DNA of 64,000 bases, taken from Marinifilum flexuosum. Its GTDB lineage: Bacteria; Bacteroidota; Bacteroidia; Bacteroidales; Marinifilaceae. Shown here piece by piece: positions 10,138 through 51,715 of this stretch. Within the stretch, counting starts at the first letter, position 1, and each line of letters opens with the position of its first letter. The notes below the pieces were generated by a model. The model ran no database searches, was not told the origin of the DNA, and saw only the letters and a program-made list of their open reading frames with translations. The position numbers and the translations under genes were made by a program. The stretch is taken from NCBI RefSeq assembly GCF_003610555.1, contig NZ_RAPQ01000008.1, forward strand, positions 124,001 through 188,000. Direction: 5' to 3'.

Positions 10138-10155
10138 GCATTAAGTATTAGACGT

Positions 10156-13100
10156 ATGAAGAAAATAGCCTTTTTTACCCTACTCGCAAGTTTGTTTATT
10201 AGTGCCTGTACTCAGGACAAACAGATTCTTTGGCAATTGGGAGAAAACGATAATTCCTGTGCTGAGTTTGCCTTGGCTCCCGGCGGATATAAAGACTATA
10301 TCGCCAATGATTTTGGTTGGGAAGACAAGTACTTCCTGATTGGAAAATCGGATGCAAAAAAGGATTGGCCATACATCATTCCGGGCATTAGCGATACCTG
10401 GGGTGGCACCTGGGGAACAGCCGGGTGGAGGTCCAGCACCCTGAACATCCTCTTTGGAATTGAATCCCTTCCCAAGAGAGGGGATTGGAAACTGACAGTT
10501 GATATTCTGGATTGCAATTCGAAAGATTTGCCCCTTTTCAAGGTCACCGTAAACGGTACATCGTGGAAATACAGCATACCGGAAATCAGCAAGAACTCTT
10601 CTATTGATACTTTGCCGGAAAATCCTTCGGAATACCTCATTGAGATACCTCTGCCTGCCGACCTTATCCGTAAAGGGGGGAACCAGATTAGCATGACTAC
10701 CCTGCAGGGATCATGGTTGAAGTTTGACCAGATTAAGCTGGAAGGACCTGAAAGTGTTCGTTTGGTAGCTGATGACAAAGTGCATATAAGGGGTGTGAAG
10801 GCAGCTGAGTATGAGTTAGACATCGATGGAAAATCGGTCCAGCCCTTGCTGGTGGATGTGGAACACCTGCAGGCAAGGCCCAAGCTGACCGTTATCCTCG
10901 ATGGGAAGGATATCTTTTCGGAGACCGTGGAGCAGGGAAGGTACGAATTTGAAGCGCCCATGCCTGCCGTGAAATCTCGAAAAGAGAGCAACTATGAGAT
11001 ATGGGCCGATGGAGTTAAGATTCAGGAAGGGGAAGTGATACGTTCCGCCCAAAAGAAAAGAACACCAGCTGAATATGTTGATTCGAGAATGGGAAGCGGC
11101 CACTCCCGCTGGATGATTGCTCCAGGACCATGGATGCCATTTAGCATGGTGAAACTGAGTCCCGACAACCAGAATCCAAGCTGGCAGGCGGGCTACGATC
11201 CCAACTTCGAATCAATAGGATGTTTTAGTCATATCCACGAATGGACCATGGCAGGACTGGGAATCATGCCAACCAACGGCCCTTTGCAAATCAAGGTGGG
11301 CGACGAGAAAGATCCGGATAGCGGCTATCGTTCGAGAATCGACAAGGCAACGGAAACTTCGCGCATAGGCTACTACAGTGTCGATTTGACCGATTACAAC
11401 ATTCAGGCGGAGCTGACAGCTTCTACACGATGTGGATTTCAGCGATACACCTTTCCTGATTCCGATGACGCAAGAATCTTAGTAGACCTGCAGATTCCTT
11501 GTGAATACACCTATCAGAACAGGGAGATAGAGCTGAAGCAGGTGAGCGATTACCGAATTGAAGGTTTTAGCCACCAGTTAACGGAGAATACCTGGGCCGG
11601 AGGCATCGATCAGGAGTACACCATTTACTATGTGATTGAGTTCGATCAGCCCATTGGCAAGATGGGAACATGGATAGACGATAAAATTAGCGATGCAAAA
11701 GCCATTCATGCCAAAGATGTTAAGGATGCCGGTTGTTATGTGGAGTTTAGCACCAGGAAAAGCAACCAGGTGCAAGTGCGTACGGGGATTTCCTATGTGA
11801 GCATTGACAATGCTGCTGAGAATTTAAAGACCGAGGTTTCCAATCCTTTCGGTTGGGATTTTGATTCCCTAAGAGCTCATCATGTGTCTGAGTGGAATAA
11901 GCTGTTGGGTCGAATCAATATATCGAGTAACGACCAGCGCGAGAAGATGCGTTTTTACAACAACATGTATCGCTCATTGTGCAGCCGTAATATATTCAGC
12001 GATGTAAACGGAGAGTGGCGAGATGCTGGCGAAAAGGTACGAAAGATGAAGGATCCTTCTTCTCCGGCCTTGGGTTGCGATGCATTTTGGAATACCTTCT
12101 GGAACCTGAATCAGTTCTGGAACCTGGTAACTCCTGAGTGGACCAATCGTTGGGTAAAATCACAACTGGCCATGTACGATTCTAATGGATGGCTGGCAAA
12201 AGGTCCTGCCGGAATGGAATATGTTCCCGTAATGGTGGCAGAACACGAAATCCCTTTGATTGTTGGAGCCTACCAAATGGGGATTCGCGATTACGACGTG
12301 GAAAAAGCCTACGAGGCGGTTCGCAAGATGCAGACAACACCTGCGCAAAAAGTAGGGGGTGGATTTGCCGGTAACCGTGACCTGGTAAGCTACCTGAAAC
12401 ATGGCTATGTGCCCTACGACAAGGGACGTTTTTCCAATTCACTGGAGTACTCCTACGACGACTGGACGGTTTCACAGTTTGCCAAAGCCTTAGGCAAGAA
12501 GGCAGATTACAAGAAGTTCCTTTCGCGAGGCTATTACTGGAAGAACATCATTGATCCAGACCTTGGCTTTGCGCGTATGAAAGATTCGAAGGGAAAATGG
12601 TTGCCCGATTTCGATCCGTACAAATCAGGAGCCAACCACCACTATGTGGAAGGTAACTCGTGGCAGCTAAGCTTTTTCGTTCCCCAGGATGTTCCTGCTT
12701 TGGCTGCAGCCATTGGCAAGGATCGCTTTGTGGAGCGATTGGATTGGGGATTTGGCGAAAGCTATAAAACCAGGTTCAACGGAATGAACGACCTGTACTG
12801 GAACTATCCTGTTGTTCAGGGAAATCAGCAGTCCATGCACTTTGCCTTTCTTTTTAACTGGGTGCAAAAACCTTGGCTAACACAGAAGTGGAGCAGGGCC
12901 ATCATCGATCGTTATTACGGTTATGGCGTTGCCAATGCCTACCTGGGCGATGAGGATCAGGGACAGATGAGCGCCTGGTTCATCATGGCATCCCTTGGCC
13001 TGTTCCAAACCGATGGGGGCTGTCGTGTTGAGCCCGTATATGAAATTGCCAGTCCGCTCTACAAAAAAGTGGAAATTGATTTGGGCAAACGATTTGGCAG

Positions 13101-38042: not shown

Positions 38043-38072
38043 AAAAAGAGCTCCAATTTGGAGCTCTTTTTT
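38043..38072. terminator. Bidirectional terminator
   Basis: 12-bp perfect stem AAAAAGAGCTCC / GGAGCTCTTTTT around AATTT, with A and T runs on both sides; it lies between convergent stop codons of the peroxidase and lipid kinase genes. Confidence 0.92.
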
Positions 38073-38077
38073 GTTAT

Positions 38078-38953
38078 CTACGAAAGTATTTTAAGACTAT
38101 TTGCATCTACCTTTAATTTGATTTTTTCACCAATAACAATTGGTTCTCCATCTACATGTCCGAGTTGAGAGGCATGAACAATTTCTACTTCATCAAACTT
38201 AAACTCTTTGAACAAAGAGGAGCTTTCGATTTTCCTCGTAAAAGTTTTAATGGTTAAAGATGGGATTTGATACCACTTTGGTTTCTGCAACAGACAAAGG
38301 TTTAATTTTCCATCATCAATTTTAGCAGAAGGAGCGATGAATGCATTGTTGCCAAATTGAGATGAATTACAAAAACTCAACATCATGCCTTCTTCAATAC
38401 ATAAACGGTTGTTGGTTGTTAATTTGAATTTTTGACATTTAAATGTTCGGAAACTTGTTAAAACAGCCTTTATGTAGGAAGTAAATCCTCGAGAATTCAT
38501 ATTGGCAAACTGGTGAGAAATAAGCGCATCAAATCCAATACCCGCTACATTCACAAAACGATACTCATTGATACAAGCAGTATCCATTGATTTGATTTTA
38601 GCCTTATTAAGGTGTTGAATTGCTTTTTTTGCATTCATAGGAATACCAAGATGTCTTGCTAATCCATTACCTGATCCACAAGGAATAATACCCATGGCAA
38701 CATTGGAGAATGTCAAGGCACTAGCTATCTCATTAATTGTTCCATCTCCTCCTATTGCAATTACCAGATCAAATCCATTCTCTATGGCTTTTTTTGTAAG
38801 CTCAGATGCATGACCTGCATATTGGGTCATTTCAATTGTTAATTGAAATTTGGATTCGTCTAAATGTTGCTTTAGCAGATTTTTGATATGTTTTTGTTTG
38901 CCATTCCCAGAAATTGGATTGATAATGGCAAGTGTATTTAATTTGTCTTGCAT
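38078..38953 (-). CDS. Diacylglycerol kinase-family lipid kinase (DagK/YegS type)
   Basis: 291-residue soluble lipid kinase. It carries IINPISGNGKQ at the start, the nucleotide-binding GGDGT at 68-72 in AIGGDGTINEIASAL, IPCGSGNGLARHLGIP, and the C-terminal HVDGEPI motif. The family phosphorylates diacylglycerol or related membrane lipids. It lies downstream of the phosphotransferase gene on the same strand (about 170-base gap). LTA-synthase-type enzymes release diacylglycerol from phosphatidylglycerol, so recycling of that product is a plausible link (inference). Confidence 0.92.
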   Translation of the reverse strand: MQDKLNTLAIINPISGNGKQKHIKNLLKQHLDESKFQLTIEMTQYAGHASELTKKAIENGFDLVIAIGGDGTINEIASALTFSNVAMGIIPCGSGNGLARHLGIPMNAKKAIQHLNKAKIKSMDTACINEYRFVNVAGIGFDALISHQFANMNSRGFTSYIKAVLTSFRTFKCQKFKLTTNNRLCIEEGMMLSFCNSSQFGNNAFIAPSAKIDDGKLNLCLLQKPKWYQIPSLTIKTFTRKIESSSLFKEFKFDEVEIVHASQLGHVDGEPIVIGEKIKLKVDANSLKILS

Positions 38954-39121: not shown

Positions 39122-41032
39122 TTACTTGTTAAAATTGTACCCTTTGTGGTGAAACAAATAGCTGGCTGTTTGATAATATGTAATCGCATCTTTCAGTTCA
39201 GATTTGTTTAGTTTACAGGCCTTTTGATCACCATTTTCAATTGAATAGGATTCAATTCGTTTTGTTGGCAACTGAACGGTGAGTAAATTATTTTTTAGCA
39301 AGCCAATTTTCTGATAAGTTCCAATTAAAGCTCTATCAGGATGATCTAAGAGAATATCTTTACCGAAAAATTTAGATGTATAATCCATATTCAATAATCC
39401 CATAACGGTTGGGGCAAAATCAATTTGAGAAGCCATTGTTTTTACTTCTCTGGCTTTAATAATTCTCGGAGCGTAGATCATAAGTGGGATATGATATTTT
39501 TTTACTGGCAAAGAGGTTTTTCCAGCACTTGAAGCACAGTGATCAGCTACAATTACAAATAAAGTGTTGTTGAACCACTCATGTTTTCTTGCTTCACGTA
39601 GGAATTTGGCAATTGCATAGTCGGTATATTTTACTGCACCTTTTCTTCCGGTATGTGAAGGAATATCAATCTTACCTTCGGGGTAAGTATATGGCCTGTG
39701 ATTCGAGGTTGTCATGATAAAATTGTGGAATGGTTTCCCTGAATGATGGGCTTTGTCAGCAACCTGCATTGCTTTTGCAAAAAGATCTTCATCGCAAACA
39801 CCCCATGCATTTTCGAAAGTGATTTCTTCTTTTTTGAAATCTGATTTATCCACAATATTGTAACCACTGTTCCCGAAGAAATAGTTCATATTGTCAAAAT
39901 AACCATTCCCTGCATAAATGAAATTGGTATTGTAACCTTTCGATTTTAAGACATTACCCAAAGTAAACATTCCTTCATTTTTTGGACGCTTTACAATAGA
40001 GTACCCGGGTGTTGGAGGCAAAGAAAGCGTTAGGGCTTCCATGCCTCGAACAGTTCTTGTTCCCGTTGCATAAAAGTTGGTGAAAAACAATGATTGTTGA
40101 GCAATGGTATCCATGTTTGAAGTAATATTATCAGTTCCACCAAATTTAGTAAAGAATGATCCGCTCAAACTCTCTACAGTAATCATCATTACATTGTAAT
40201 TTTTGTCTTCACCCGGGTAAGTGATTTTTCGAGTTACATCAAATACATCATTACTGATAAATTCACTGTTTGAAGTTTTAATAAGCTTTCTCAAATTGGA
40301 AAAAGCTTCCTTATCATCCATTGATTCGTAGAACGATTTGTAATCCAACTCGTTGTTTCTGAAAGCTGAAAATACCTGATATATGCCATTATGAGCCAAT
40401 TCATTTGAATAAGTGTTCTCTGGGATTTCAGCCGAGGTTTTATCAATTGTAAGAAAGGCTATTGTTGGGATCATCCAAAGTACAACACTGGTGATTAATC
40501 GCTTTACAAATTTGGATTCGGAGTTAATACATTGGTCAAACTGCCTTTTAACCAAAGCAAAGATTCCTCCCGAAAGTACAAGCATTCCAAAAATAATAAT
40601 TGGCATTGGATAAGATTCTTTAATATTGGAAATCACCTCGTGTGTATAAATCAGGTAATCCACCGCAATGAAGTTGTATCTTACGCTAAACTCTTCCCAG
40701 AAAAACCATTCTCCAATTCCAGAAAACACAAGAATCCCAATGCTAATTGTGAAGAAAGCATATGATATCCAACGGTGAATTTTGCTGTTGAAGATTTTGT
40801 CAGGAATGATTAAAAGATACAATACAAATGGAATGATGAAGTACGATATGGCAATCAAATCGTAGAACAGACCGAATGTATAGATTTTAAAGAATCGAAT
40901 GACGCTTAACTCAACATTCTGAAAATCTTTAATTAAAAGAATAGTTCTTACCAAAAAAGATAAGGCAATGAAAATTAAACTGAATATGGCCAAACCACCA
41001 TAACGACTTTGTAGGATGTTTCTGAACTTCAT
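39122..41032 (-). CDS. LTA-synthase-family membrane phosphotransferase (sulfatase fold)
   Basis: 636-residue inner-membrane enzyme: five N-terminal helices (IFSLIFIALSFLVRTILLI through GMLVLSGGIFALV) and a periplasmic alkaline-phosphatase/sulfatase-type domain from about residue 250. Metal and nucleophile motifs are MMITVESLSGSFFTKFGG, the Thr-containing TGTRTVRGMEALTLSLPP, and IVADHCASS. Family members move phosphoglycerol or phosphoethanolamine from lipids to glycans or proteins. The frame is open 57 bases further upstream, but the ATG opening MKFRNILQSRYGG is preferred. The identical 18-bp direct-repeat operator found before the GT2 gene lies 50 bases upstream, tying it to that regulon. 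Confidence 0.9.
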   Translation of the reverse strand: MKFRNILQSRYGGLAIFSLIFIALSFLVRTILLIKDFQNVELSVIRFFKIYTFGLFYDLIAISYFIIPFVLYLLIIPDKIFNSKIHRWISYAFFTISIGILVFSGIGEWFFWEEFSVRYNFIAVDYLIYTHEVISNIKESYPMPIIIFGMLVLSGGIFALVKRQFDQCINSESKFVKRLITSVVLWMIPTIAFLTIDKTSAEIPENTYSNELAHNGIYQVFSAFRNNELDYKSFYESMDDKEAFSNLRKLIKTSNSEFISNDVFDVTRKITYPGEDKNYNVMMITVESLSGSFFTKFGGTDNITSNMDTIAQQSLFFTNFYATGTRTVRGMEALTLSLPPTPGYSIVKRPKNEGMFTLGNVLKSKGYNTNFIYAGNGYFDNMNYFFGNSGYNIVDKSDFKKEEITFENAWGVCDEDLFAKAMQVADKAHHSGKPFHNFIMTTSNHRPYTYPEGKIDIPSHTGRKGAVKYTDYAIAKFLREARKHEWFNNTLFVIVADHCASSAGKTSLPVKKYHIPLMIYAPRIIKAREVKTMASQIDFAPTVMGLLNMDYTSKFFGKDILLDHPDRALIGTYQKIGLLKNNLLTVQLPTKRIESYSIENGDQKACKLNKSELKDAITYYQTASYLFHHKGYNFNK

Positions 41033-41081
41033 GTTTTTTGAATTGCGGGATTTGTAATAGGATTCAAAAAAACTGAGCGTT

Positions 41082-41099
41082 TCTAACAAAAATCTAACA
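41082..41099 (-). promoter_or_regulatory. Direct-repeat operator candidate, site 1 (two TGTTAGA, 11-base period)
   Basis: On the minus strand TGTTAGATTTTTGTTAGA, identical over 18 bases to 47136-47153. Heptamer direct repeats with an 11-base period are the usual binding pattern of dimeric OmpR/PhoB-class regulators. It stands 50 bases before the phosphotransferase start codon. No clear -7 box follows at the expected place. Confidence 0.65.
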
Positions 41100-41138
41100 A
41101 TTGGTTTAGATGTCTGAAAAAGAATATTAAAAAATCTT

Positions 41139-41172
41139 AAAAGCTCACTTTTACAGTTATAAGTGAGCTTTT
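41139..41172 (-). terminator. Terminator of the Fe-S protein gene
   Basis: 12-bp perfect stem AAAAGCTCACTT / AAGTGAGCTTTT with a 10-base loop, T-rich on both sides, 11 bases past the stop of the minus-strand Fe-S gene. It separates that gene from the operator and start of the phosphotransferase gene. Confidence 0.88.
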
Positions 41173-41182
41173 AAAGAATGTT

Positions 41183-42529
41183 CTATTGAAACAATGATGA
41201 AATAGGACCAATTAAAAATATCACAAGATGGAAAAGGATAGTGATATAGAGAATCCATTTACCTGGGTCGGTTTTACTTACTTTTTTTACAGATATATAT
41301 GTCGCATAACAAAGCCCCAAAATTCCCAAAACAAGAACCAGGTTGTTCACCCAAGCTAACGGATTGAGAGCAATTTCCTTATTGAAAATTAGATTTGCAT
41401 ATTGCAAACCATCTGGTTGTTCGAGGGCATATTGCCAATATGGAATTCTTGAACTGGTTTTTAACAAGGCTTTGAATACATGTCCAAATGCTACCAATGG
41501 CAAAAGATGAATGGCAAGTTTTTGAAGGCTTTGTTTCCATGAAGTTTTTCCATTTACTTTAAGTAGGAAAGAGATGAATCCCATAAAAATAGCAGGAACA
41601 AGAAGGAAGAGAATCAATGCTTCAAACAAGCCGTATGGAATAGCCTCACTACCGATTAATTTGTTGAGGTGTGAAGGAATGAAACGAATAATGGTATTAC
41701 TTGTTTCCCAAGATGAAAGGTTCTCATAGCAAACAAAACCAAGAAGTACCATCAACATTCCTATTTCAGACCATAAAAGCTTTTTTAAGTCGAAATTTTG
41801 GTAAGAACTTTTAATTCTTTTGAGAGTGATATTGTTGTTTGAGCAGGATTTTACACATTGAGTACAAAGAATGCAAGTTCTGTTATCGGTAATGTTAGCT
41901 GGATACAAGTTTGAAGAACACGATCTTCCAATCAATTTGTATTGATTTTCTTTTGAGATACAATCCTTGGTTTTACATGAATGGCAAGTGACCTGATTCT
42001 TAACTCTTATGCCAAAGTGAGACAGAAGAGAATACAATCCTAATAGTTTACCTACAGGACATAAATAGGAACAAAAGGCTCTTTTTTCATAAATGATTGA
42101 CAAGATTACAGCCAAGCCCATTAGTGATAAAAGATAATAAGCCATAAGGTTAGGATAACGATGAATTCCCCAAGTATGTATGGCAACTATGGCAATAAAT
42201 GCGTAGAAAATGGTAATCATCCATCCTGATTTCAGGAATTTGGGAACTTTTCGCTTCAAACCAATACGATTAGCAATTGCTGATAAAAGTTCAATTGGGC
42301 AGATGCTACACCAATGTCGTCCGAAAAATACGGCAGTTAACACAATTACAGGCCACCAATACGACCATACAATTAAATTGGATAAGTTGGTATTTCGCAA
42401 TTGTTTTACAAGAGCAGGATCACTGGTTGTAACATTAATTGCTCCTAAAACAAGAAGTGTAAATATTAGAAGTGATAGGATCTGAAATACAAGAGGGTAG
42501 AGTTTAGATTTATATAATTTTTCAATCAT
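41183..42529 (-). CDS. NapH/NosR-like polytopic 4Fe-4S membrane protein
   Basis: 448 residues with about ten hydrophobic segments and several cysteine motifs. Two C-x3-C-P sites (RHWCSICPIELLSA and FCSYLCPVGKLLGLYS) of the NapH/NosR/CcoG type sit at membrane edges, followed by a cytoplasmic ferredoxin-like part (CHSCKTKDC ... CILCTQCVKSC) that can hold two 4Fe-4S clusters. Relatives pass electrons across or along the membrane. The gene sits 69 bases after the small secreted protein gene and ends the lipid-modification operon at its terminator. Why a redox protein belongs there is unclear; it may drive a redox step on the sugar or be unrelated. Confidence 0.8.
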   Translation of the reverse strand: MIEKLYKSKLYPLVFQILSLLIFTLLVLGAINVTTSDPALVKQLRNTNLSNLIVWSYWWPVIVLTAVFFGRHWCSICPIELLSAIANRIGLKRKVPKFLKSGWMITIFYAFIAIVAIHTWGIHRYPNLMAYYLLSLMGLAVILSIIYEKRAFCSYLCPVGKLLGLYSLLSHFGIRVKNQVTCHSCKTKDCISKENQYKLIGRSCSSNLYPANITDNRTCILCTQCVKSCSNNNITLKRIKSSYQNFDLKKLLWSEIGMLMVLLGFVCYENLSSWETSNTIIRFIPSHLNKLIGSEAIPYGLFEALILFLLVPAIFMGFISFLLKVNGKTSWKQSLQKLAIHLLPLVAFGHVFKALLKTSSRIPYWQYALEQPDGLQYANLIFNKEIALNPLAWVNNLVLVLGILGLCYATYISVKKVSKTDPGKWILYITILFHLVIFLIGPISSLFQ

Positions 42530-42598
42530 TTTTTCATTTGTAATTTAACATGAGAATTGGGAATCAATAGGCATACTGATTCGTAGAAATTGGATGTG

Positions 42599-42961
42599 TT
42601 AAATTAATGAAGGTGGGGATAATGAATTATTCAAATATAAAAAGCGATCTGATTTAGATGATATTAAGTTGTTGTGAGTAAGAATTTCAAATTCATAAAA
42701 AACAGAGGAGCAGTTACAGTTTTTAGTCTCTGTGAATTCTAAGTGTGGAAAGGGAAGTTTTAGGTCACTATCCTTAAAGGATAGGTAAAAAACAGCATGT
42801 AATAATTCGTCAGTATTTTTCTCTTCGTTTTTAGAATTGCGGCTCTGTAAAAATTCAAATACCTCTCCTGTTTCAGCATGAATATCATGTTTATGTGGAA
42901 TAATCCTTTCCGAAATAGAGGAAAGAAATGCGAGTAATAATATGAATTGCAGAGTTCTCAA
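42599..42961 (-). CDS. Small secreted hypothetical protein
   Basis: 120 residues with an N-terminal hydrophobic segment (LQFILLLAFLSSIS) that may be a signal peptide. It then has a His-containing RIIPHKHDIHAET and a CNCSS pair. No family recognised. Translation starts eight bases after the epimerase stop, so it belongs to the same operon. A role as accessory or metal-binding protein is a guess. Confidence 0.6.
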   Translation of the reverse strand: MRTLQFILLLAFLSSISERIIPHKHDIHAETGEVFEFLQSRNSKNEEKNTDELLHAVFYLSFKDSDLKLPFPHLEFTETKNCNCSSVFYEFEILTHNNLISSKSDRFLYLNNSLSPPSLI

Positions 42962-42969
42962 TCTAATGA

Positions 42970-43971
42970 TTATGCAACGATTTCTCTAACATTTATTTTC
43001 TTATACCATTCTACGAAAAGTTTAATCCCTTCTTCAAATGAAACTTTAGGAGAATATTCAATAAGTTCTTTGGCTTTGTTTATATCAGCAAATGTTCGAT
43101 TTACGTCGCCAGCTTGCATTGGAAGACGGTTGATGTTTGGGATAATTCCAGAAGCTTTAGAGATGGCTTCTATCATTTGATTTAAGGGTATTGGATAACT
43201 GTTACCAAGGTTAATAGTTTCAAATACATTTTCGCTTTTAAAAAGGAACTCACAAACTTTAACAATTCCATCAACAGTATCATCTACAAAGGTATAATCT
43301 CTTGCTGTACTTCCATCTCCAAATACAAGAATGGGTTCTTCATTCATCATCAATCTCAGAAATTTGTGAATTGCCAGATCTGGTCGCTGACGAGGACCAA
43401 AAACAGTAAAGAATCGCATGTTAACGATATCTAGATTATACAGATGATGATAGGAATGATTTAAGATTTCACAAGCTTTTTTTGAAAAGGCATAGGGAGA
43501 AATCACATGATCGACATTTTGATCTTCAGCGAATGGAACTGTAGAATTGTTTCCATACACCGATGAGGATGATGCAAAGGCCAGTTTTTTAATTCCTTTT
43601 TCATTCATGAAATCAAGGATGTTTCTAGTAGCTGTGATATTACTATCGATATAACTTTGAGGAGCTTCTATTGACGGTCGAACACCGGCTTTGCCTGCCA
43701 AGTGGACAATGAGAGATACATTTTCCTGTATCATGTTTAATACACCAGTTTGGCAAAGGTCTAATTGGTAAAATTTAAAAGCTTTGTTTCTTTTAAATCC
43801 TTCCATATTCTCCATCTTTAAATCTATGGAATAATAGGGATCAAAATTATCGACACCTACAACCTGATAACCCAGATTTAAAAGCTTTTCACACAAATGC
43901 GAACCAATAAATCCAGCACATCCTGTTACAAGAATGCTTTCTTTTAATCTGTTTTCTTGTTTAATTTCCAT
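42970..43971 (-). CDS. NAD-dependent epimerase, UDP-glucuronate 4-epimerase-like
   Basis: 333-residue extended-SDR nucleotide-sugar epimerase. The Rossmann motif GCAGFIGSH is at the start, the active-site Ser in FASSSSVYG and the Y-x3-K as YAFSK. FDPYYSIDLK and the MRFFTVFGPRQRPDLAI segment are characteristic of UDP-glucuronate 4-epimerases (UDP-GlcA to UDP-GalA; LpsL/GAE type). The reading frame overlaps the end of the ArnT-like gene by 11 bases. It would supply the uronic acid donor for the lipid-linked sugar pathway encoded beside it. Substrate assignment is by motif and context only; UDP-glucose 4-epimerase activity is the main alternative. Confidence 0.87.
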   Translation of the reverse strand: MEIKQENRLKESILVTGCAGFIGSHLCEKLLNLGYQVVGVDNFDPYYSIDLKMENMEGFKRNKAFKFYQLDLCQTGVLNMIQENVSLIVHLAGKAGVRPSIEAPQSYIDSNITATRNILDFMNEKGIKKLAFASSSSVYGNNSTVPFAEDQNVDHVISPYAFSKKACEILNHSYHHLYNLDIVNMRFFTVFGPRQRPDLAIHKFLRLMMNEEPILVFGDGSTARDYTFVDDTVDGIVKVCEFLFKSENVFETINLGNSYPIPLNQMIEAISKASGIIPNINRLPMQAGDVNRTFADINKAKELIEYSPKVSFEEGIKLFVEWYKKINVREIVA

Positions 43972-45700
43972 AGTCCTTTGTTTTATTCATTTCTATAGCG
44001 GTAGCTTCTGAAAATGTTTTGTCAGCAATTGAAATGGGACTTACCAAACTGACATATTTCTTAAAATGTTCTTTGTATCGATTTTTCCCAAACCTGTTCT
44101 TATTGTTATCGTATTGACCTATAATGTCAAGTTTAATTTTGTTCATTTGGGCTTTGGTAAACAAAGCTTTTGGGTTTTCAGTTGAGATGACCAAAAAGGG
44201 TTTCTCTTCAGGTAGATCAGGTTTTTCCAAGGTATTCCATTGTTTTACCTCTTTACCTATTTCATAAACCAATTCAATTGCGAGATGATCTTCACCTATA
44301 CTATAATAGTTGTATTCATGGAAATTAGTGAGTTTTCTAATCTCAGCTATGCTCTTGAAATGAGGATTTCTATTTAAGATTCCACCTGTGTGGGGAATAA
44401 TGAAGATTACAACGATTAGGAACAATGCTGTTGTGCTGAGTACCATGCCTCTTACATTTCGATTGATCCAACAGATTGCCATAAGCATTGCAATGATCTC
44501 TGAAAAAATAGAGAAAAGTGCGAAAGAATGAATTGATATCAAGTTCTCCCTTAGAAACATTACAAAAACAATAACTGGCATCGAAAAAGCGACAATGGCA
44601 ATGATCCATGTATTAATCCCAAATAAAATATGGTCTGCTTTTTTAGCGCTGTCATTCTTAAAAGCAAGGTATAGATGATGAAACAGCTGTCCTGCCAATA
44701 ACGCGCTTGGAATTAATACAGGCAAAAGATATCTGTCTTTTTTCTCAGGGATTAATGAAAGAAGAACCACAGATGATAAAGTCCATATCAATGCAAATTT
44801 GTATTCCTCTTTTGCCTTGAAATTTTTGATTGCGTAGGGAAATAGTAAACTGGTAAAAATGGCTATTGTCCAAACTCCAGATTGAATAGGAAAATTCCAA
44901 TAGTAATAGAAAGGACGAACATGGCGATTCATCCAAGAACCAGATTCCAGTTTAGCAACAGCGGCAGCTTCTTGAGCATGTGCAATTGAAATGTAAATTG
45001 GCCACCAAAAACTAATGATTGCAAATATAAGCAGACAAAGAGCAATGGGTTTCCAGTATTGTTTTAAGTTTATTTTCTTATAAACTGAGAAATACGCAAT
45101 TAAAAAGGGTAGAAGGAGAGCAAAAAATGCCACTGGACCTTTACTTAGAAAGGACAATCCTAACAAAACGCCGGCGAACGAAAACTTAATCCATAAACTA
45201 TCATTGTTATGATGATTAAAGGCGCTGTAAATAATCCAGATGGCACCCAACATGAAGCTGTGACAGAATATATCCCAAGTTCCTGTTCTGCTCATATAAA
45301 GTACATAAAAGCTGCTAACAAGAATTAGGCAGTTTGTTAAAGCTTTTATTCTATTTCCGTTTAAACTAAGGGTAAATTGGTACATAAACAATACCATCAA
45401 TGAGCCCATTATTCCAGCCGGAAACCTAAGCATACTTAAATTTTCCATGCCAAATATGTTCCCGAATATTGCGGTAATCCAAGTGGGAAATGGAGGCTTT
45501 GCCAATCGCAACTCTCCGTTCATTGTTGGTACAAGCCAATTGCCTTTTTCAATTATTTCTCGAGCGGTAACAAAGTTTCGCGCCTCCATGATATTTACAA
45601 AGAACTCATCATTAAACAGGAAAAATGAGAGGTAGCAAATAATAATTAGCAAAATGGCATGCCCATATCGATTGTTATCTAGTATTGATTGGATATTCAT
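43961..45700 (-). CDS. ArnT/PMT-type integral membrane glycosyltransferase
   Basis: 579-residue GT-C enzyme with about 12 membrane helices and a C-terminal periplasmic part. The first periplasmic loop has the acidic and KPP motifs of the ArnT/RgtA/PMT group: NIMEARNFVTAREIIEKGNW then NGELRLAKPPFPTWITAIFG. Such enzymes take a sugar from a polyprenyl phosphate carrier and attach it to lipid A, LPS core or protein. It lies five bases after the LAB_N gene and overlaps the epimerase gene, between the donor-making and carrier-loading enzymes. Lipid A or core uronic acid addition is the best prediction. Confidence 0.87.
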   Translation of the reverse strand: MNIQSILDNNRYGHAILLIIICYLSFFLFNDEFFVNIMEARNFVTAREIIEKGNWLVPTMNGELRLAKPPFPTWITAIFGNIFGMENLSMLRFPAGIMGSLMVLFMYQFTLSLNGNRIKALTNCLILVSSFYVLYMSRTGTWDIFCHSFMLGAIWIIYSAFNHHNNDSLWIKFSFAGVLLGLSFLSKGPVAFFALLLPFLIAYFSVYKKINLKQYWKPIALCLLIFAIISFWWPIYISIAHAQEAAAVAKLESGSWMNRHVRPFYYYWNFPIQSGVWTIAIFTSLLFPYAIKNFKAKEEYKFALIWTLSSVVLLSLIPEKKDRYLLPVLIPSALLAGQLFHHLYLAFKNDSAKKADHILFGINTWIIAIVAFSMPVIVFVMFLRENLISIHSFALFSIFSEIIAMLMAICWINRNVRGMVLSTTALFLIVVIFIIPHTGGILNRNPHFKSIAEIRKLTNFHEYNYYSIGEDHLAIELVYEIGKEVKQWNTLEKPDLPEEKPFLVISTENPKALFTKAQMNKIKLDIIGQYDNNKNRFGKNRYKEHFKKYVSLVSPISIADKTFSEATAIEMNKTKDYGN

Positions 45701-45705
45701 TGATG

Positions 45706-46350
45706 TTAGTTTTCAGAGTTTAGTTGGAGTTTCTTTTTTCGGATTAAAATGATATTTCGTGTATAAACTATCATTCCGAATCCTTGTCCGATAAACAATA
45801 CCGGATCTGTTCGATAGACTGCATAGGACAAAATCATACATGATCCGATAATGCTTATGATCCAAAATCCTATAGGGAGACAGGATTCACCTTTTTGTTC
45901 GGAATAAACCCATTGATAAATGAACCGGAAGGTGAAAATAATTTGTCCGGCAATTCCCCAAATCAAGAGCAAAACAGGAATGTCATCATTCTTAAATAAA
46001 AGATTTTGATGCAATTCCCAATTGAATATGATGTTTGCAATTGCAAAAATCGGAGTACCAAGAGCCAGAATTCGCGTTACTAAAGGCAATTTTTTCCAGC
46101 GTTTTTGTAATTGTAGGTTACGGATATAGATTGTATAAGCAATGATTTGACCTAAGATGATCGCAAAATCATTGCGCAATAATCCATACATAAACAACAG
46201 CCAGGAAGCCAATATGCTCAACTGCCAGAATATTGCGGGTGAAAGAGAATCACCAGCTTTCTCAGATTTTACCCATTGAACAATTAGGCGGGCCGAAAAA
46301 AGGGCTTGTGCCAGAAAACCAATGGCATAAATATGGTAGCTTTCCATCAT
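45706..46350 (-). CDS. Lipid A biosynthesis N-domain (LAB_N) membrane protein, two repeats
   Basis: 214 residues, six to seven membrane helices made of two LAB_N repeats: GFLAQALFSARLIVQWVKSE then KAGDSLSPAIFWQLSI, and again QIIFTFRFIYQWVYSEQKGE followed by FWIISIIG. LAB_N occurs at the N-terminus of some LpxB proteins and as stand-alone membrane proteins near GT2 and ArnT genes; it is distantly like SWEET/PQ-loop carriers. Its start overlaps the GT2 stop by four bases (ATGA type), so the two are translationally coupled. It may help move the polyprenyl-phosphate sugar across the inner membrane (inference). Confidence 0.85.
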   Translation of the reverse strand: MMESYHIYAIGFLAQALFSARLIVQWVKSEKAGDSLSPAIFWQLSILASWLLFMYGLLRNDFAIILGQIIAYTIYIRNLQLQKRWKKLPLVTRILALGTPIFAIANIIFNWELHQNLLFKNDDIPVLLLIWGIAGQIIFTFRFIYQWVYSEQKGESCLPIGFWIISIIGSCMILSYAVYRTDPVLFIGQGFGMIVYTRNIILIRKKKLQLNSEN

Positions 46351-47075
46351 CCCTGGTTTGAGATTTCATAATTGATGTATCGTTTTTTCATCCAACGGTA
46401 GGCAAAACAATCTTTAAACGGACCAATCATTCGGTTGAATAAATGGTATTTTGCTTCGCCGGCAATTCGAGGAAAATGACGAACGGGAATTTGTTTCATT
46501 TCCCCGTTTTGCAACATGATTAAGGCAGGAATAAATCGGTGCATGCCAGTAAAGAATGGAATCTTCCTGGCATATTTTGTTTGCATGATTTTTAAAGGAC
46601 AACCCGTATCAATGGCTTTATCCTTGGTCATGAATCGACGAAAGTTGTTGGCTATTGTCGAGCTCAGGTTTTTTACAAAACGGTCTTTTCGATCCTTTCG
46701 ATAGCCAGTAACCAATGCATAATCATTGCGGTATTCCATCAGGAAATCAAAATCAAAAGGAGTTGTCTGTAAATCGGAATCAATATAGCCTACAAATTCG
46801 GTGTCAGCATGATCAATTCCAGCTTTAAGGGCAGCACTCAACCCCATGTTTTGATTTAATTCGATGTATTGATATCGATCGGAGCTTTTGCAAATCTTTT
46901 CAATCATCATTTGACTGTAATCAGATGATCCATCATTTACAAATAAAACCTTTGAGCGATAGGGAGATTGGGAAAAGTAAGCGTTGAATTCCACTTTTAC
47001 TCGTGCAAGGTTATCTTCCTCATTGTATACGGGAACAACAATGGTAAGCTCAAATTTTGGATGCGATAAATTCAT
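46347..47075 (-). CDS. GT2 polyprenyl-phosphate glycosyltransferase (ArnC/RgtE/DPM1-like)
   Basis: 242-residue cytoplasmic GT-A enzyme. TIVVPVYNEEDNLARV opens the nucleotide-binding domain, FVNDGSSDYS follows, and ELNQNMGLSAALKAGI, FVGYIDSDLQTTP (DxD motif) and the C-terminal RHFPRIAGEAKYHLFNRM (related to the R-x2-G-x-SKY loop of DPM-type enzymes) complete the family pattern. No C-terminal membrane helices, unlike ArnC, so it resembles DPM1. The frame is open to 47132, but the ATG opening MNLSHPKFELT is preferred because an operator and probable -7 box lie in the upstream part. It is the first gene of the envelope-modification operon. Confidence 0.9.
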   Translation of the reverse strand: MNLSHPKFELTIVVPVYNEEDNLARVKVEFNAYFSQSPYRSKVLFVNDGSSDYSQMMIEKICKSSDRYQYIELNQNMGLSAALKAGIDHADTEFVGYIDSDLQTTPFDFDFLMEYRNDYALVTGYRKDRKDRFVKNLSSTIANNFRRFMTKDKAIDTGCPLKIMQTKYARKIPFFTGMHRFIPALIMLQNGEMKQIPVRHFPRIAGEAKYHLFNRMIGPFKDCFAYRWMKKRYINYEISNQG

Positions 47076-47101
47076 GATATGATCTGTTAGTTCTTCCATT
47101 C

Positions 47102-47153
47102 CAAATAAAAACATGGAACAAAAGTCCGTCACTGATCTAACAAAAATCTAACA
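47102..47153 (-). promoter_or_regulatory. Promoter with direct-repeat operator candidate, site 2
   Basis: The operator TGTTAGATTTTTGTTAGA occupies 47136-47153 (minus strand) and overlaps the stop codon of the upstream sensor kinase gene. Twenty-six bases downstream is TTTATTTG (plus-strand 47102-47109), 7 of 8 to the -7 consensus, with no -33 TTTG at the right distance. An operator in place of the -33 element suggests activation by the OmpR-type regulator. Confidence 0.6.
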
Positions 47154-48404
47154 AGCTGGGAATTGAAAAGTAAAAGTATGTTTAAAATTCTTAAATGAGT
47201 AATTGATCTGCATGTTGTAATGATCGGTAATCTTCTTTACAATGGCCAAACCAATGCCTGTTGATTCTTTACCATCACTTTCTTTATAGAATCGTTTAAA
47301 TATTTGGTCTGGATTTTTAATCTTCTCCTCTCCATAATTACTGAAAACAAGCTGATTTTTTTTAAGCTCAATTTCAAGGTCTTTATGGTTAGGAGAGTGT
47401 TTAATGGCATTCACCAGTACATTTTGTATCCATAACAATACCAGCCTTTTGTCCATGTATACAACACAATCATTTTCAGATGTAAACTTGACATTCAGGT
47501 TGCGATCTTCAATAATTTCCCTGTAGAAATTTATTTTATCAGAAATTATTGATTTGAGGCAAATCTTTTTTTCTTCGTTGAACTGACCATGATCAATTTT
47601 TGCAAGAAGTAGCAATGCTTTCGTTATGCCGGACAAACGATCTGTAGAAACAAAAATTTCGCGAATAGACTGGATGGTATCGGAAGACAAATCATCTTTT
47701 GAAAAAAGAGATTCACATTTGGTTCTGATTACAGCTAAAGGTGTTTGAAGCTCGTGAGCTGCATTGGCAGAAAATTCTTTGGATGCTTGATAATCTTTTC
47801 CTAATCGATCCGACATTTTGATCAAAACCCGGTTTAAATCATCAAATTCATCAACATTTGTAGTTTGGAGTTGAAGTCTTTCTTTAGAAGTAAATGAATA
47901 TGATTTTAATGTATCCAAATTGTCTTTAAAATCCTTCCAAAGGCTTTCGCTCATGTATTTGTTATAATACATCATTACTAAAAATATTGAACCAAGAAAT
48001 ATACTGATGATGGGAGTTATGTCGATAAATAACTCCCAAAAACTCTCTGCAAAGTGCCTGTGAACAATTAGATAATTAGTCCCATTTATTTTTTGTGAAA
48101 ATTGATATTCCCTAAATTCATCCATGGTTTGATCTTCAGGATCAAACATGATTGTGTCTTTAAATAATCCGGGAACAGAGTCTTGAATATCGATAATTTT
48201 AACGGAGTAAGTGGGTTGTATTTCAGGAAAATGTCCATGAACTTTAATAATTTTAGCAACTTCCATTGCACCATACCGGAGTTCTTGTTCTGTATCTAAT
48301 TTTTGAATCTGAGAAATCATAGAAATGATAATTAAATCAGCAATGAAAAATACAATTAAACCATATTTGAAATAGTTTTTGTTGATTTTGGTAAGAAGTT
48401 TCAT
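47148..48404 (-). CDS. Sensor histidine kinase, first of two paralogues
   Basis: 418-residue inner-membrane kinase: helix 1 near residues 14-33, a periplasmic domain of about 95 residues, helix 2 near 128-147, then HisKA with His217 in SANAAHELQTPLAVIRTKC and the ATPase domain (NAIKHSPNH, IKNPDQIFKRFYKES, STGIGLAIVKKITDHY). Length, helix positions and the phosphoacceptor position match the neighbouring kinase exactly, so the pair arose by tandem duplication. It is third in the regulator-kinase-kinase set and is followed directly by the operator of the GT2 operon. Confidence 0.92.
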   Translation of the reverse strand: MKLLTKINKNYFKYGLIVFFIADLIIISMISQIQKLDTEQELRYGAMEVAKIIKVHGHFPEIQPTYSVKIIDIQDSVPGLFKDTIMFDPEDQTMDEFREYQFSQKINGTNYLIVHRHFAESFWELFIDITPIISIFLGSIFLVMMYYNKYMSESLWKDFKDNLDTLKSYSFTSKERLQLQTTNVDEFDDLNRVLIKMSDRLGKDYQASKEFSANAAHELQTPLAVIRTKCESLFSKDDLSSDTIQSIREIFVSTDRLSGITKALLLLAKIDHGQFNEEKKICLKSIISDKINFYREIIEDRNLNVKFTSENDCVVYMDKRLVLLWIQNVLVNAIKHSPNHKDLEIELKKNQLVFSNYGEEKIKNPDQIFKRFYKESDGKESTGIGLAIVKKITDHYNMQINYSFKNFKHTFTFQFPAC

Positions 48405-48482
48405 ATATGAAGCTTTTTCAATTCGTAATTGCAGTAATTAATCAATGTATGAGTACAAAGTAGAATCTATTTGTTTGAAATT

Positions 48483-49736
48483 TTATTTTGGAAATCTATA
48501 TTCGAAAACGTGTTTAGAATTCTTAAAATGATATTCAAACTCTATCTTATAATGATCTATTATTTTTTTTACGATTGCCAGTCCTATGCCTGAAGAACCA
48601 ACCTGCTCTGATTCTTTGTAAAAACGATTAAAGATTTGTTCAGGATTTGTTATTGCTTTTTCTCCAAAATTTGAAATGGATAATTGCTTGTCATTTACTT
48701 GAATATTAACTTGATCTCCTTTGGGTGAGTACTTGATAGCATTAATGATGATATTTTGAATCCATAGGTTGGCAAGTCTTTTATCAATATTAATGATACA
48801 ATCGCCAGTAGAATGAAAGTTTATTTTTAGATTTTTATCCTCCAGGATTTCCTTAAGTGAATCTATTTTTGAATTAATAAATTGATTCAAATTAATCTGT
48901 TCATTTTTGTTGAATTGTCCGTGATCAATTTTAGCCAATAAAAGAAGAGCTTTGGTTATTCCAGATAACCTGTCTGTCGAGACATAAATTTCATGTATGG
49001 AATTGATCACCTTTTCATTTAAATCCTGATAAGAAAACAAATCCTCACACTTATTTCTAATTATAGAGAGAGGGGTTTGTAATTCATGTGCTGCATTGGC
49101 CGAAAACTCTTTGGATGCTAAGTAATCTTTTTCCAATCGATCAGACATTTTCTTGAGCACTTGATTTAAATCATCGAACTCATCAATACCAGTATTGTCT
49201 AACTTCAATTGATTATTGGAACTGAAGGAATGTTCTTTTAATAAATCAACATTTTTATTAAAAGTTCCCCAAAGGATGGTATTCATTTTTTGTGTAAAAA
49301 GAAGAACGAGCACAAAAATTAAACCCAGAACCGTAGAAATTAATGCCGTGTAAAGAGAAAAAATATCATCAAATTCCATTAGCATTTGGCGGGTGATAAT
49401 TTGGTAATGCTTTCCGTTAATTGATTTGAAAGTGCTTAATTCCCTGTATGGAACAAGATCATCATGTTTTGAATCATATATTACTGTATCTTTTGTTGTT
49501 TCTTTGCTAATTTCAGAGTAGGAAATTTCTTCAACAATGTCAGTCGGGTAAACACTTAGAAAATTACCTTTCTGTTCAACGGTTTCGGCAATTAACTCAG
49601 CTTCTAGCAATAGTTGCTGATCTATCTCTTCCTTTAGAATGAAATTACTCATCAGAATAATTACCACATCTGCAATTAAAAATACAAGGATACCATACCT
49701 AAAATAGGTGCGGTTAATTTTGCTTAGAAGCTTCAT
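48483..49736 (-). CDS. Sensor histidine kinase, second paralogue
   Basis: 417-residue kinase with the same plan as the adjacent paralogue: opening MKLLSKINRTYFRYGILVFL against MKLLTKINKNYFKYGLIVFF, periplasmic sensor, helix 2 near 128-147, His217 in the identical SANAAHELQTPL context, ATPase motifs NAIKYSPKG, ITNPEQIFNRFYKES and SSGIGLAIVKKIIDHY. Divergence is greatest in the periplasmic segment (residues 45-125), so the two may sense different signals while feeding one regulator. It begins three bases after the regulator stop, so this one is the more tightly coupled partner. Confidence 0.92.
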   Translation of the reverse strand: MKLLSKINRTYFRYGILVFLIADVVIILMSNFILKEEIDQQLLLEAELIAETVEQKGNFLSVYPTDIVEEISYSEISKETTKDTVIYDSKHDDLVPYRELSTFKSINGKHYQIITRQMLMEFDDIFSLYTALISTVLGLIFVLVLLFTQKMNTILWGTFNKNVDLLKEHSFSSNNQLKLDNTGIDEFDDLNQVLKKMSDRLEKDYLASKEFSANAAHELQTPLSIIRNKCEDLFSYQDLNEKVINSIHEIYVSTDRLSGITKALLLLAKIDHGQFNKNEQINLNQFINSKIDSLKEILEDKNLKINFHSTGDCIINIDKRLANLWIQNIIINAIKYSPKGDQVNIQVNDKQLSISNFGEKAITNPEQIFNRFYKESEQVGSSGIGLAIVKKIIDHYKIEFEYHFKNSKHVFEYRFPK

Positions 49737-49738
49737 GT

Positions 49739-50422
49739 TTAATGAATTTCAAGTTTATAGCCAAAGCCATGAACGGTTTTGATATAGTTCTCGCCAGTAT
49801 GCTGTTTAAGTTTTTTCCTGAGACGGTTGATATGAGTATATATGAAATCAGAGTTGTCCATGAAAACAGAATTTTCTCCCCATACATGCTCAAACAAACT
49901 TTCCTTAGTCAAAACTCTGGTTTTGTTCTCAATAAAGTATAGCAAAAGATTATACTCTTTTTTACTAAAGCTCACCACCTGCCCAGATATTTTTACTTCG
50001 TTATTAAGGGGATTGATTTCAATATCTTCAAACTGAATAGAACAAGAGTTTGCATGAAAATTTCTCCTTAGAAGTGCATTGATACGAGCATATAATTCCG
50101 ATAAATGAAATGGTTTTACCAAATAATCATCAGCCCCAAGGTTTAATCCATCCACACGATCTTCCAGTTTATCACGTGCCGAAATGATGATAACACCAGT
50201 TTCATTCCAAATGGACTTGATAAATGGAATACAATCCAAGCCATCGCCATCAGGCAAACCCAAATCGAGTAAAACGATAGGGTAAAACTTCTTATCGAAA
50301 AGTTGTTTTCCTTCTTTTATGCTTGTGGCACAAATACATTTAAAACCTGATGAGTTTAAAAAGTCAGCAACGGTCTTTTGCAGGCTTAAATCATCTTCAA
50401 TCAGTAAAATATCTTTATTCAT
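49739..50422 (-). CDS. OmpR/PhoB-family response regulator
   Basis: 227 residues. Receiver domain with acidic D10/D11 in LLIEDDLSLQ, phosphoacceptor Asp53 in LLDLGLPDGDGL, Thr/Ser in VIIISARDK and Lys in DDYLVKPFHLSEL. The C-terminal winged helix has VSFSKKEYNLLLYFIENKTR and IYTHINRLRKKL, closing with IKTVHGFGYKLEIH. It heads the operon regulator-kinase-kinase. Winged-helix regulators of this class bind tandem half-sites 11 bases apart, the pattern of the two TGTTAGA operators found in this region; these are its likely targets (inference). Confidence 0.94.
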   Translation of the reverse strand: MNKDILLIEDDLSLQKTVADFLNSSGFKCICATSIKEGKQLFDKKFYPIVLLDLGLPDGDGLDCIPFIKSIWNETGVIIISARDKLEDRVDGLNLGADDYLVKPFHLSELYARINALLRRNFHANSCSIQFEDIEINPLNNEVKISGQVVSFSKKEYNLLLYFIENKTRVLTKESLFEHVWGENSVFMDNSDFIYTHINRLRKKLKQHTGENYIKTVHGFGYKLEIH

Positions 50423-50488: not shown

Positions 50489-51571
50489 CTATTTCATAAA
50501 CAGATTGGCAATTTCATGACTGAAGCTAAGGAACCTTACATTTGAAAGATTGGTTAAAACCACTACACAAACTTCTTCTTTAGGATAAATGATCATGTGT
50601 GTAGTTGCTCCAATCGATCCCCCTGAATGACCATAGTAATAATGCCCTTTATGATCTGTTCCGCTCGCCCAGCCAATTCCATACTCGGTTAGGTTTCCTT
50701 TTGTTGTTTTCTGGGAACGGGTCAACTCATCAATCTGCTTTTGACTTAGGTATCCTGTTTTGCAATGCGCTTTGGCAAATCGCATGATATCTTCCGATGT
50801 AGACAAAAAGCCTCCACCTGCCCATTTAATGCTATTGTCAACAAAAGGTCCATTTACGATTCGATTATCCCTGGTTCTTTGATAAAATCCTGTACGATTG
50901 ACAATGATACTATCAGTATGATCGGCTATCGTATTGTTCATTTCCAATGGATTAAAAACATGCTTTTGCATGTAGGTAAGAAACTCTTCTCCCGAAGCTT
51001 TCTCAACAATTCGACTTAACAAGTTCCAGCCATAACTTGAATAGTGGAACTCTTTACCAGGATAAGAGATCAAAGAATCATTCTTGAAGATTTCAAGTGC
51101 ATCATCAATATTGTTATAGTGTTTGGCACTTAAAAACTCATTTCCCTTGTAATGACGAATACCTGCCAAATGACCAGCTACCATTCTGCTGGTAATTTTA
51201 GCTTGTTTCTTTGGAAAGTCAGGCAAATAGTATTGAATGGATGAATCCAATTGTAGTTTGTTTTGATCCCACAATTGAATGAGAGCATCGGCACTAACAG
51301 GCTTTGAAATACTACCAATGCGAAACTTTGTTATAGCAGGATCAACTTTAGCCTGAGATTCCAGGTTTCCATACCCAAATCCTTTGGAAAGAACATTTTT
51401 ACCTTTAACCGAAACGGTAATGGCTAAGCCAGGAATTTGATTCTTCGCGATAAAGTCATTGGTCAATTCAATGGCTTGCTCAATAGACTTATCATACTTT
51501 GATTTTTGACTCTGACATGATAATGATAAAAGAACAAAAAGACATGCCAGTAAAGATTTTGTGAAATTCAT
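50489..51571 (-). CDS. Beta-lactamase-fold serine hydrolase lipoprotein (class C type)
   Basis: 360-residue penicillin-binding/beta-lactamase-related serine hydrolase. The lipobox signal LACLFVLLSLSC gives a lipoprotein. The nucleophile motif is S87-I-S-K90 in RIGSISKPVSADAL, the second motif is the Tyr-Ser of HYSSYGWNLLS, and the third is HSGGSIGATTHM, with HSG in place of KTG, typical of the DD-peptidase/esterase-like subgroup rather than true beta-lactamases. The frame is open 87 bases further upstream, but the ATG before the signal peptide is preferred. It lies 66 bases after the regulator start, divergent from BrkB, and is probably independent of the two-component locus. Confidence 0.88.
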   Translation of the reverse strand: MNFTKSLLACLFVLLSLSCQSQKSKYDKSIEQAIELTNDFIAKNQIPGLAITVSVKGKNVLSKGFGYGNLESQAKVDPAITKFRIGSISKPVSADALIQLWDQNKLQLDSSIQYYLPDFPKKQAKITSRMVAGHLAGIRHYKGNEFLSAKHYNNIDDALEIFKNDSLISYPGKEFHYSSYGWNLLSRIVEKASGEEFLTYMQKHVFNPLEMNNTIADHTDSIIVNRTGFYQRTRDNRIVNGPFVDNSIKWAGGGFLSTSEDIMRFAKAHCKTGYLSQKQIDELTRSQKTTKGNLTEYGIGWASGTDHKGHYYYGHSGGSIGATTHMIIYPKEEVCVVVLTNLSNVRFLSFSHEIANLFMK

Positions 51572-51715
51572 AAGTGTTGTTTTGATGGATGATGATTTAA
51601 AATTATAAAATAATTCAAATATGATTGTATTGATTAAGCCATGTTTAGCATTTGTCAAATCATATGCTTTTGATTAATTTGCGAACTATAAAATCTATTA
51701 TAAAAAGCTTTGTTG

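Follow-up and report, generated by a model that had tools for sequence, protein, structure and literature searches.

We examined a predicted two-component-controlled envelope-modification locus of the marine bacterium Marinifilum flexuosum in a 64-kb stretch of contig NZ_RAPQ01000008.1 (the window, 64,000 nucleotides; all coordinates are positions of that stretch). The locus lies entirely on the minus strand, from the response regulator at 50422 to the lipid kinase at 38078, and is wider than the range 41183-50422 given in an earlier note on this DNA. Seven genes had been named there: a regulator, two kinases, a family 2 glycosyltransferase (GT2), a LAB_N protein, an ArnT-like transferase and a UDP-glucuronate-4-epimerase-like enzyme. 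All seven are minus-strand open reading frames (ORFs) at the place given, with overlaps or small gaps, and their labels are backed by Pfam and NCBIfam. Left unlisted within the range were a 120-aa secreted protein and a NapH-like protein, and the range ends before an LtaS-family phosphotransferase, which has the same predicted regulator box, and a lipid kinase. The features are:

49739-50422, minus strand: response regulator of the OmpR/PhoB type, receiver and winged-helix domains (PF00072 and PF00486)
48483-49736, minus strand: sensor histidine kinase 1, with a periplasmic sensor of ~93 aa (NCBIfam PorY-family, 365 bits, cut-off 350)
47148-48404, minus strand: sensor histidine kinase 2 (NF052314, 357 bits, cut-off 350)
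47137-47152, minus strand: predicted regulator box GTTAGATTTTTGTTAG ahead of the GT2 gene; the stop codon of kinase 2 falls within the first GTTAG of the box
47119-47122, minus strand: TTTG, predicted Bacteroidota -7 promoter element, 14 nt after the GT2 box; spacing kept
46347-47132, minus strand: GT2, DPM/ArnC-like polyprenyl-phosphate sugar synthase without a membrane anchor (PF00535)
45706-46350, minus strand: double LAB_N protein, SWEET/PQ-loop fold (PF07578 twice)
43961-45700, minus strand: ArnT-like GT-C glycosyltransferase (AlphaFold 2 (AF2) model compared with ArnT 5f15)
42970-43971, minus strand: UDP-glucuronate 4-epimerase, predicted to convert UDP-glucuronic acid (UDP-GlcA) to UDP-galacturonic acid (UDP-GalA) (closest PDB chains and substrate residues)
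42599-42961, minus strand: accessory small secreted protein, 120 aa, of no known family in domain-library scans
41183-42529, minus strand: accessory NapH-like 4Fe-4S membrane protein (PF12801; NapH/MauN NCBIfam models below cut-off)
41136-41175, minus strand: hairpin resembling an intrinsic terminator, 3' of the NapH-like gene (15-bp stem, T run)
41083-41098, minus strand: predicted regulator box GTTAGATTTTTGTTAG ahead of the LtaS-like gene, the second exact genomic copy
41065-41068, minus strand: TTTG, predicted -7 element 14 nt after the LtaS-like box
39122-41089, minus strand: LtaS/OpgB-family periplasmic phosphotransferase (PF00884)
38078-38953, minus strand: YegS/DAGK-type lipid kinase (PF00781 and TIGR00147, above cut-off)
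38043-38071, minus strand: terminator at the locus end, common to the convergent gene

The nearest relatives come from Marinifilum species, the ArnT-like protein of M. breve matching at 97%. The order regulator, kinase, GT2, LAB_N, ArnT-like, epimerase (rr-hk-gt2-lab-arnT-epim) is kept in every retrieved Marinifilum or Labilibaculum locus whose contig covers it (locus L014 ends inside arnT, so the order there is only partly covered), which rules out a chance arrangement. These loci have one or two kinases; the LtaS-like gene, if present, either follows the epimerase or is placed between the kinase and the GT2, and the NapH-like and small secreted genes are variably present, the small protein in some Marinifilum only. 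Outside the two genera, gt2-lab-arnT occurs without the regulator in Flavobacteriia and other Bacteroidia.

Among solved structures, the epimerase comes closest to 5u4q, to the UDP-GlcA 4-epimerase of Bacillus cereus (BcUGAE) and to MoeE5. It keeps S126, S127, S128, Y149, K153, T178 and R185 (BcUGAE numbering), comprising the catalytic Tyr and Lys of the short-chain dehydrogenase/reductase (SDR) family and the carboxylate-binding positions; position 126 shows a Thr-to-Ser change that is the same in 5u4q. The residues that hold the carboxylate have been assigned in the B. cereus enzyme (PMC7984243, PMC12338863). As a control, the genome's own UDP-xylose-synthase (UXS)-like protein has E128, N178 and N185 instead. 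Taking the locus-type subfamily as epimerases with 64% or more to that of the M. flexuosum locus, we found it in 13 genomes of a 39-genome sample of Marinifilum's own family, and in 13/13 it lies beside the GT2-LAB_N-ArnT module. In three genomes of other families (L041, L049, L051) an epimerase homologue sits inside the module, between lab and arnT. A predicted UDP-glucose dehydrogenase encoded elsewhere in the genome can supply UDP-GlcA. From the kept residues, the module association, the homologues in other families and this dehydrogenase, UDP-GalA is the likely donor.

The sugar might be another one, with the epimerase serving a different pathway and the GT2 using UDP-GlcA, UDP-glucose or a UDP-pentose. 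Consistent with this, 18 of the 31 LAB_N-bearing family genomes are without a locus-type epimerase, and epimerases of a different type (LRLYSV motif) are neighbours in L016, L028, L039 and L053. We nevertheless consider it unlikely that the sugar is not galacturonic acid (GalA), given the 13/13 association and the placing of the homologue between lab and arnT in other families.

The predicted GalA donor would be used by the GT2, whose best PDB match is ArnC and which has no transmembrane segment in 8/8 relatives. Its neighbour is a tandem of two LAB_N domains with the architecture of SWEET proteins, two triple-helix repeats and a linker, and with homology to SemiSWEETs (profile match E 8e-4). 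Structure comparison with VIA-align gave Z 9.2-9.4 to SemiSWEETs and 11.9 to PnuC; Foldseek was weak, with no match at E 0.001, and the fold call rests on the profile and VIA-align. In L047 (7809-10070) the double LAB_N and a PMT/ArnT-like domain are fused as one 753-aa protein. A GT2 precedes this fusion there, and a response regulator and kinase of another type come after it. Adjacent gt2 and lab occur in many genomes whose ArnT-like gene is elsewhere or not seen. Strong double LAB_N proteins are sparse, with 11/296 genomes in a phylum sample and 14/395 in a class sample; the family sample has them in 31/39. The SWEET/PQ-loop fold and the fusion to an ArnT-like enzyme suggest that LAB_N is probably a flippase or partner, not a lipid A synthase. 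Judged by genomic association and fusion, it more likely flips or hands over the lipid-linked donor than joins in lipid A synthesis.

The AF2 model of the ArnT-like protein (pLDDT 84) aligns over 499 residues with CmArnT 5f15 (model residues 5-556, Z 31.0; Foldseek E 1e-13). The match includes the C-terminal periplasmic domain, and ArnT is the best hit, followed by PMT O-mannosyltransferase-type GT-C enzymes (Z 24-26). The NCBIfam ArnT equivalog model gives 77 bits against a cut-off of 567. By its changed motifs and the Met at the CmArnT Asp55 position (see below), the protein is a distinct subfamily. The labels that the earlier note had given to these three enzymes agree with the in silico evidence: the epimerase through its closest structures, kept residues and module association, the DPM/RgtE-like GT2 as a polyprenyl-phosphate-sugar synthase-like protein, and the ArnT-like transferase as ArnT-type by its modelled fold.

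The second part of the locus is a phosphotransferase module. The LtaS-like protein matches PDB 3lxq (E 7e-75), is closest to VP1736 and groups with LtaS/OpgB-type enzymes. It has five N-terminal transmembrane segments, a sulfatase-fold domain, the catalytic Thr and metal ligands, and its E287, T327, D497 and H498 (numbered from ATG 41032) are invariant in six relatives. It shows neither an EptA-type domain nor a sequence match to structures of EptA/MCR phosphoethanolamine transferases: only PF00884 was found, and the PDB matches at E 0.001 were VP1736, LtaS-type proteins and a sulfatase. In L097, regulator, kinase, LtaS-like gene and lipid kinase form one unit, rr-hk-ltaS-dagk. EptA/MCR enzymes release diacylglycerol on moving phosphoethanolamine (PMC12658134), and by analogy the adjacent lipid kinase fits diacylglycerol recycling. 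Another family genome (L090:6032-12377) has its LAB_N and GT2 genes next to a distant LtaS-family gene (26%), together with a second GT2 and a GT39; the two modules may have been paired independently there.

This second module bears on the acceptor. The same donor pathway could place a uronic acid on an exported protein, a capsule or another periplasmic glycan instead of lipid A or core lipopolysaccharide (LPS), as the PMT-type enzymes among the structural matches and the subfamily's own invariant motifs, IMEARNF and PFYYYWNF, would allow. We regard such an acceptor as improbable, because the ArnT match is better and covers the periplasmic domain, and because the predicted co-regulation with a head-group transferase and a lipid kinase favours lipid or LPS as the acceptor.

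The predicted co-regulation of the two modules comes from a direct repeat, GTTAG-N6-GTTAG, found by intergenic comparison. The 5.17-Mb genome holds just two exact copies of GTTAGNTTTTTGTTAG, against 0.016 expected (third-order Markov estimate): one lies ahead of the LtaS-like gene (41083-41098), the other at the kinase-GT2 junction (47137-47152). As a 17-mer, the box has 19 exact copies in the 39 family genomes, 11 just ahead of ltaS, 8 at the hk-gt2 junction and none elsewhere; its reversed control has 0. The box with a fixed 14-nt gap to TTTG marks 12/39 genomes, exactly those with an orthologue of the response regulator (simple odds 2.6e-10, which overstate independence because the genomes are related). 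In G656, a one-base variant stands ahead of ltaS and the regulator orthologue is absent; it is probably a relic. G650 has rr-hk-box-ltaS-dagk and no sugar module, indicating that two separable modules came under one regulator. A short match to kinase 2 in L006 (6493-6640), just ahead of the GT2, carries a second box and looks like what is left of a kinase that once stood between ltaS and gt2.

The position of the box suggests an activator that overlaps the -33 region. It also implies that two proteins start further downstream than their ORFs. The ORF starts GTG 47132 of the GT2 and TTG 41089 of the LtaS-like protein are overlapped by the predicted promoters and are thus probably too far upstream; the likely starts are ATG 47099 or 47075 for the former and, probably, ATG 41032 for the latter. 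The hairpin at 41136-41175 separates the two transcription units. A scan for sigma-70-type promoters was uninformative, with 60 sites versus 59 expected from shuffles, and GTTAG-N6-GTTAG alone, with one mismatch, is at chance level in the window, only the fuller 16-mer being informative. When we looked for more regulon members in 6 genus genomes, allowing 2 mismatches, we recovered the locus itself and a few scattered sites and accepted no extra member; one recurring, near-identical site among the scattered ones reads like conserved coding sequence.

The repeat could instead be a by-product of kinase 3' coding sequence moved by rearrangements, as the stop codon within the first GTTAG at the hk-gt2 junction and the decayed-kinase-end appearance of the sequence upstream of Marinifilum ltaS would suggest. 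We think this very unlikely, since at ltaS the flanking sequence differs (L057, L066, L075) while all fixed bases and the 14-nt TTTG spacing remain, and since the presence of the box tracks the regulator in 12/12 genomes. Read as a regulator site, the genome-unique predicted box gives sequence evidence for the two-component control that the earlier note had proposed.

That note had further likened the control to PmrAB. The PmrA regulon of enteric bacteria has an OmpR-type regulator and an 11-bp-period direct-repeat site, and comprises the arn set and eptA/pmrC. The M. flexuosum locus likewise combines an OmpR-type regulator with an 11-bp-period direct repeat, with one predicted site ahead of the ArnT-type sugar-transfer set and one ahead of the head-group phosphotransferase. 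In contrast, it lacks ArnA, ArnB, ArnD, ArnE/F and EptA-type genes, having the epimerase, LAB_N, the LtaS-family enzyme and the lipid kinase instead, and it differs in the repeat sequence and in having two kinases. The proteins also miss the membership cut-offs of NCBIfam, for PmrA (response regulator 168 versus 330) and for PmrB (kinase 2 65 and kinase 1 76 versus 314). The comparison with PmrAB thus holds for the design of the regulon but not for membership of these families.

The best NCBIfam models of the response regulator are all under their cut-offs. Kinase 1 is a duplicate of kinase 2 with a divergent sensor, and both are just above the PorY-family cut-off. In the PorXY system of Porphyromonas, PorX is a different type of protein from an OmpR-type regulator, whereas the neighbouring partner here is OmpR-type and not PorX-type; the PorY name is not to be carried over as the function of these kinases. 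A metal ion could be their signal. That the locus is a metal- or redox-response system, with CusS/CzcS-like kinases, a core of the NapH-like Fe-S protein and the small HKHD protein, and the glycan genes as passengers, is hardly credible, for although a heavy-metal kinase model is the second NCBIfam match of the kinases and the Fe-S protein gene lies within the operon, the NapH-like and small genes have no box of their own and are absent from most relatives, in which rr-hk-gt2-lab-arnT-epim stays.

We therefore favour, with a probability of about 0.6, a stimulus-controlled regulon of two envelope-modification modules, a PmrAB-like design built from other parts in Bacteroidota. Its computed basis is the gene content, the conserved order, the epimerase residues, the ArnT fold, the LAB_N-ArnT fusion and the position and uniqueness of the box; from these we infer regulator binding, the sugar, flipping, the head group, the acceptor and the signal. 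Comparative evidence supports the donor pathway and two-component control well, and we infer the lipid A/LPS acceptor and the signal. The kinases would sense the signal, and the response regulator would bind the tandem GTTAG repeats beside two promoters and switch both on. In the sugar module, the epimerase would convert UDP-GlcA to UDP-GalA, and the soluble GT2 would move GalA from UDP-GalA to undecaprenyl phosphate. The SWEET-fold LAB_N protein would carry this lipid-linked sugar across the inner membrane or present it there, and in the periplasm the ArnT-like enzyme would transfer GalA to an acceptor in lipid A or the inner core. In the other module, the LtaS-family enzyme would take phosphoethanolamine or phosphoglycerol, as the head group of a phospholipid, to the same acceptor class, and the lipid kinase would recycle the released diacylglycerol.

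Several observations weigh against this proposal. The RYA and YFEKP motifs of ArnT are needed for function (PMC5377068); here they read RNF and RLAKP, with Lys kept and Tyr lost in 24/24 relatives, and the position of CmArnT Asp55 is Met in 24/24, so that donor or acceptor may differ from those of ArnT. Many family genomes keep gt2-lab without the locus-type epimerase or the regulator, and the module's sugar may therefore vary. Being acidic, GalA would not have the effect of 4-amino-4-deoxy-L-arabinose (L-Ara4N), which lowers surface charge. Box and kinase stop codon overlap at the hk-gt2 junction. Finally, a literature search, in which few subscription papers were within reach, found no LPS structure from Marinifilum or Labilibaculum.

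Within the same reach, that search found no described counterpart for GalA-bearing lipid A in Bacteroidota, for a PmrAB-like circuit there or for the role of LAB_N. The lipid A of Zunongwangia profunda, compared by lipid A alone, has a 1-phosphate only and no uronic acid, as far as the available part of its description goes. Functional parallels include the Rgt systems. RgtE, RgtD and RgtF have roles in GalA addition to lipid A in rhizobia and Caulobacter (PMC7663294). Likened by function and not by sequence, these systems and, as predicted, the locus have in common a UDP-GlcA epimerase, a GT2 bactoprenyl-phosphate GalA synthase and a PMT/ArnT-like transferase, whereas here a single regulated locus adds a LAB_N protein and an LtaS-family module. 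LpsL is the UDP-GlcA epimerase of the rhizobial GalA pathway.

The L-Ara4N pathway (ArnC-ArnE/F-ArnT) shows the same series of GT2, small membrane flippase and ArnT, the flippase being predicted here, and it supplies the closest solved GT2, ArnC, and the closest solved transferase fold, ArnT. The M. flexuosum locus differs in a GT2 without transmembrane anchors, LAB_N in place of ArnE/F and changed ArnT motifs. In Francisella, FlmF and FlmK, a GT2 and an ArnT-like enzyme, use one polyprenyl-linked sugar to place galactosamine (GalN) on lipid A; that system needs the NaxD deacetylase and N-acetylgalactosamine, and the M. flexuosum locus has no deacetylase. We set aside L-Ara4N and Francisella-type GalN because their other pathway genes are missing from the locus, to which this search was confined.

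LAB_N belongs to the same clan as MPDU1 and the other PQ-loop and SWEET proteins. MPDU1 is required for all known monosaccharide-P-dolichol-dependent transfers in mammals (PMC3281891), and Any1, another PQ-loop protein, scrambles lipids (PMC11893163). MPDU1 is eukaryotic, whereas LAB_N is bacterial, operonic and, in one lineage, fused to the transferase, and its role is predicted. We put forward, tentatively and with rather less confidence than we would need to prefer it, that the double LAB_N protein, with its SWEET fold, flips or presents polyprenyl-phosphate monosaccharides as a functional counterpart of MPDU1, and that it works together with an anchorless GT2 and an ArnT-type transferase in a PmrAB-like regulon with two sites, which evolved independently in Bacteroidota. 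If true, Bacteroidota would have their own solution to regulated outer-membrane remodelling, keeping the logic of PmrAB (sugar and head group under one regulator) with other enzymes. With a concrete regulator site that has just two targets in the genome, the circuit would be easy to test. The operon would also offer, in bacteria, a genetic test of PQ-loop proteins such as MPDU1, whose role has long been unexplained, in the use of lipid-linked sugars, and the misleadingly named LAB_N domain would gain a function.

Among the accessory and neighbouring genes, the NapH-like protein and the small secreted protein with its HKHD stretch (41183-42961) form a pair in three Marinifilum lineages, close 3' of the epimerase; a structure-sequence search found no PDB relative of the NapH-like protein. 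A gene for a beta-lactamase-like serine hydrolase (50489-51658, same strand) lies directly upstream of the regulator in Marinifilum and not in Labilibaculum. A PAP2 phosphatase adjoins gt2-lab-arnT in several Flavobacteriia (e.g. L018:12251-12820), and the Labilibaculum locus L006 contains a homologue (9806-10522); the enzyme may act on lipid A or on undecaprenyl pyrophosphate.

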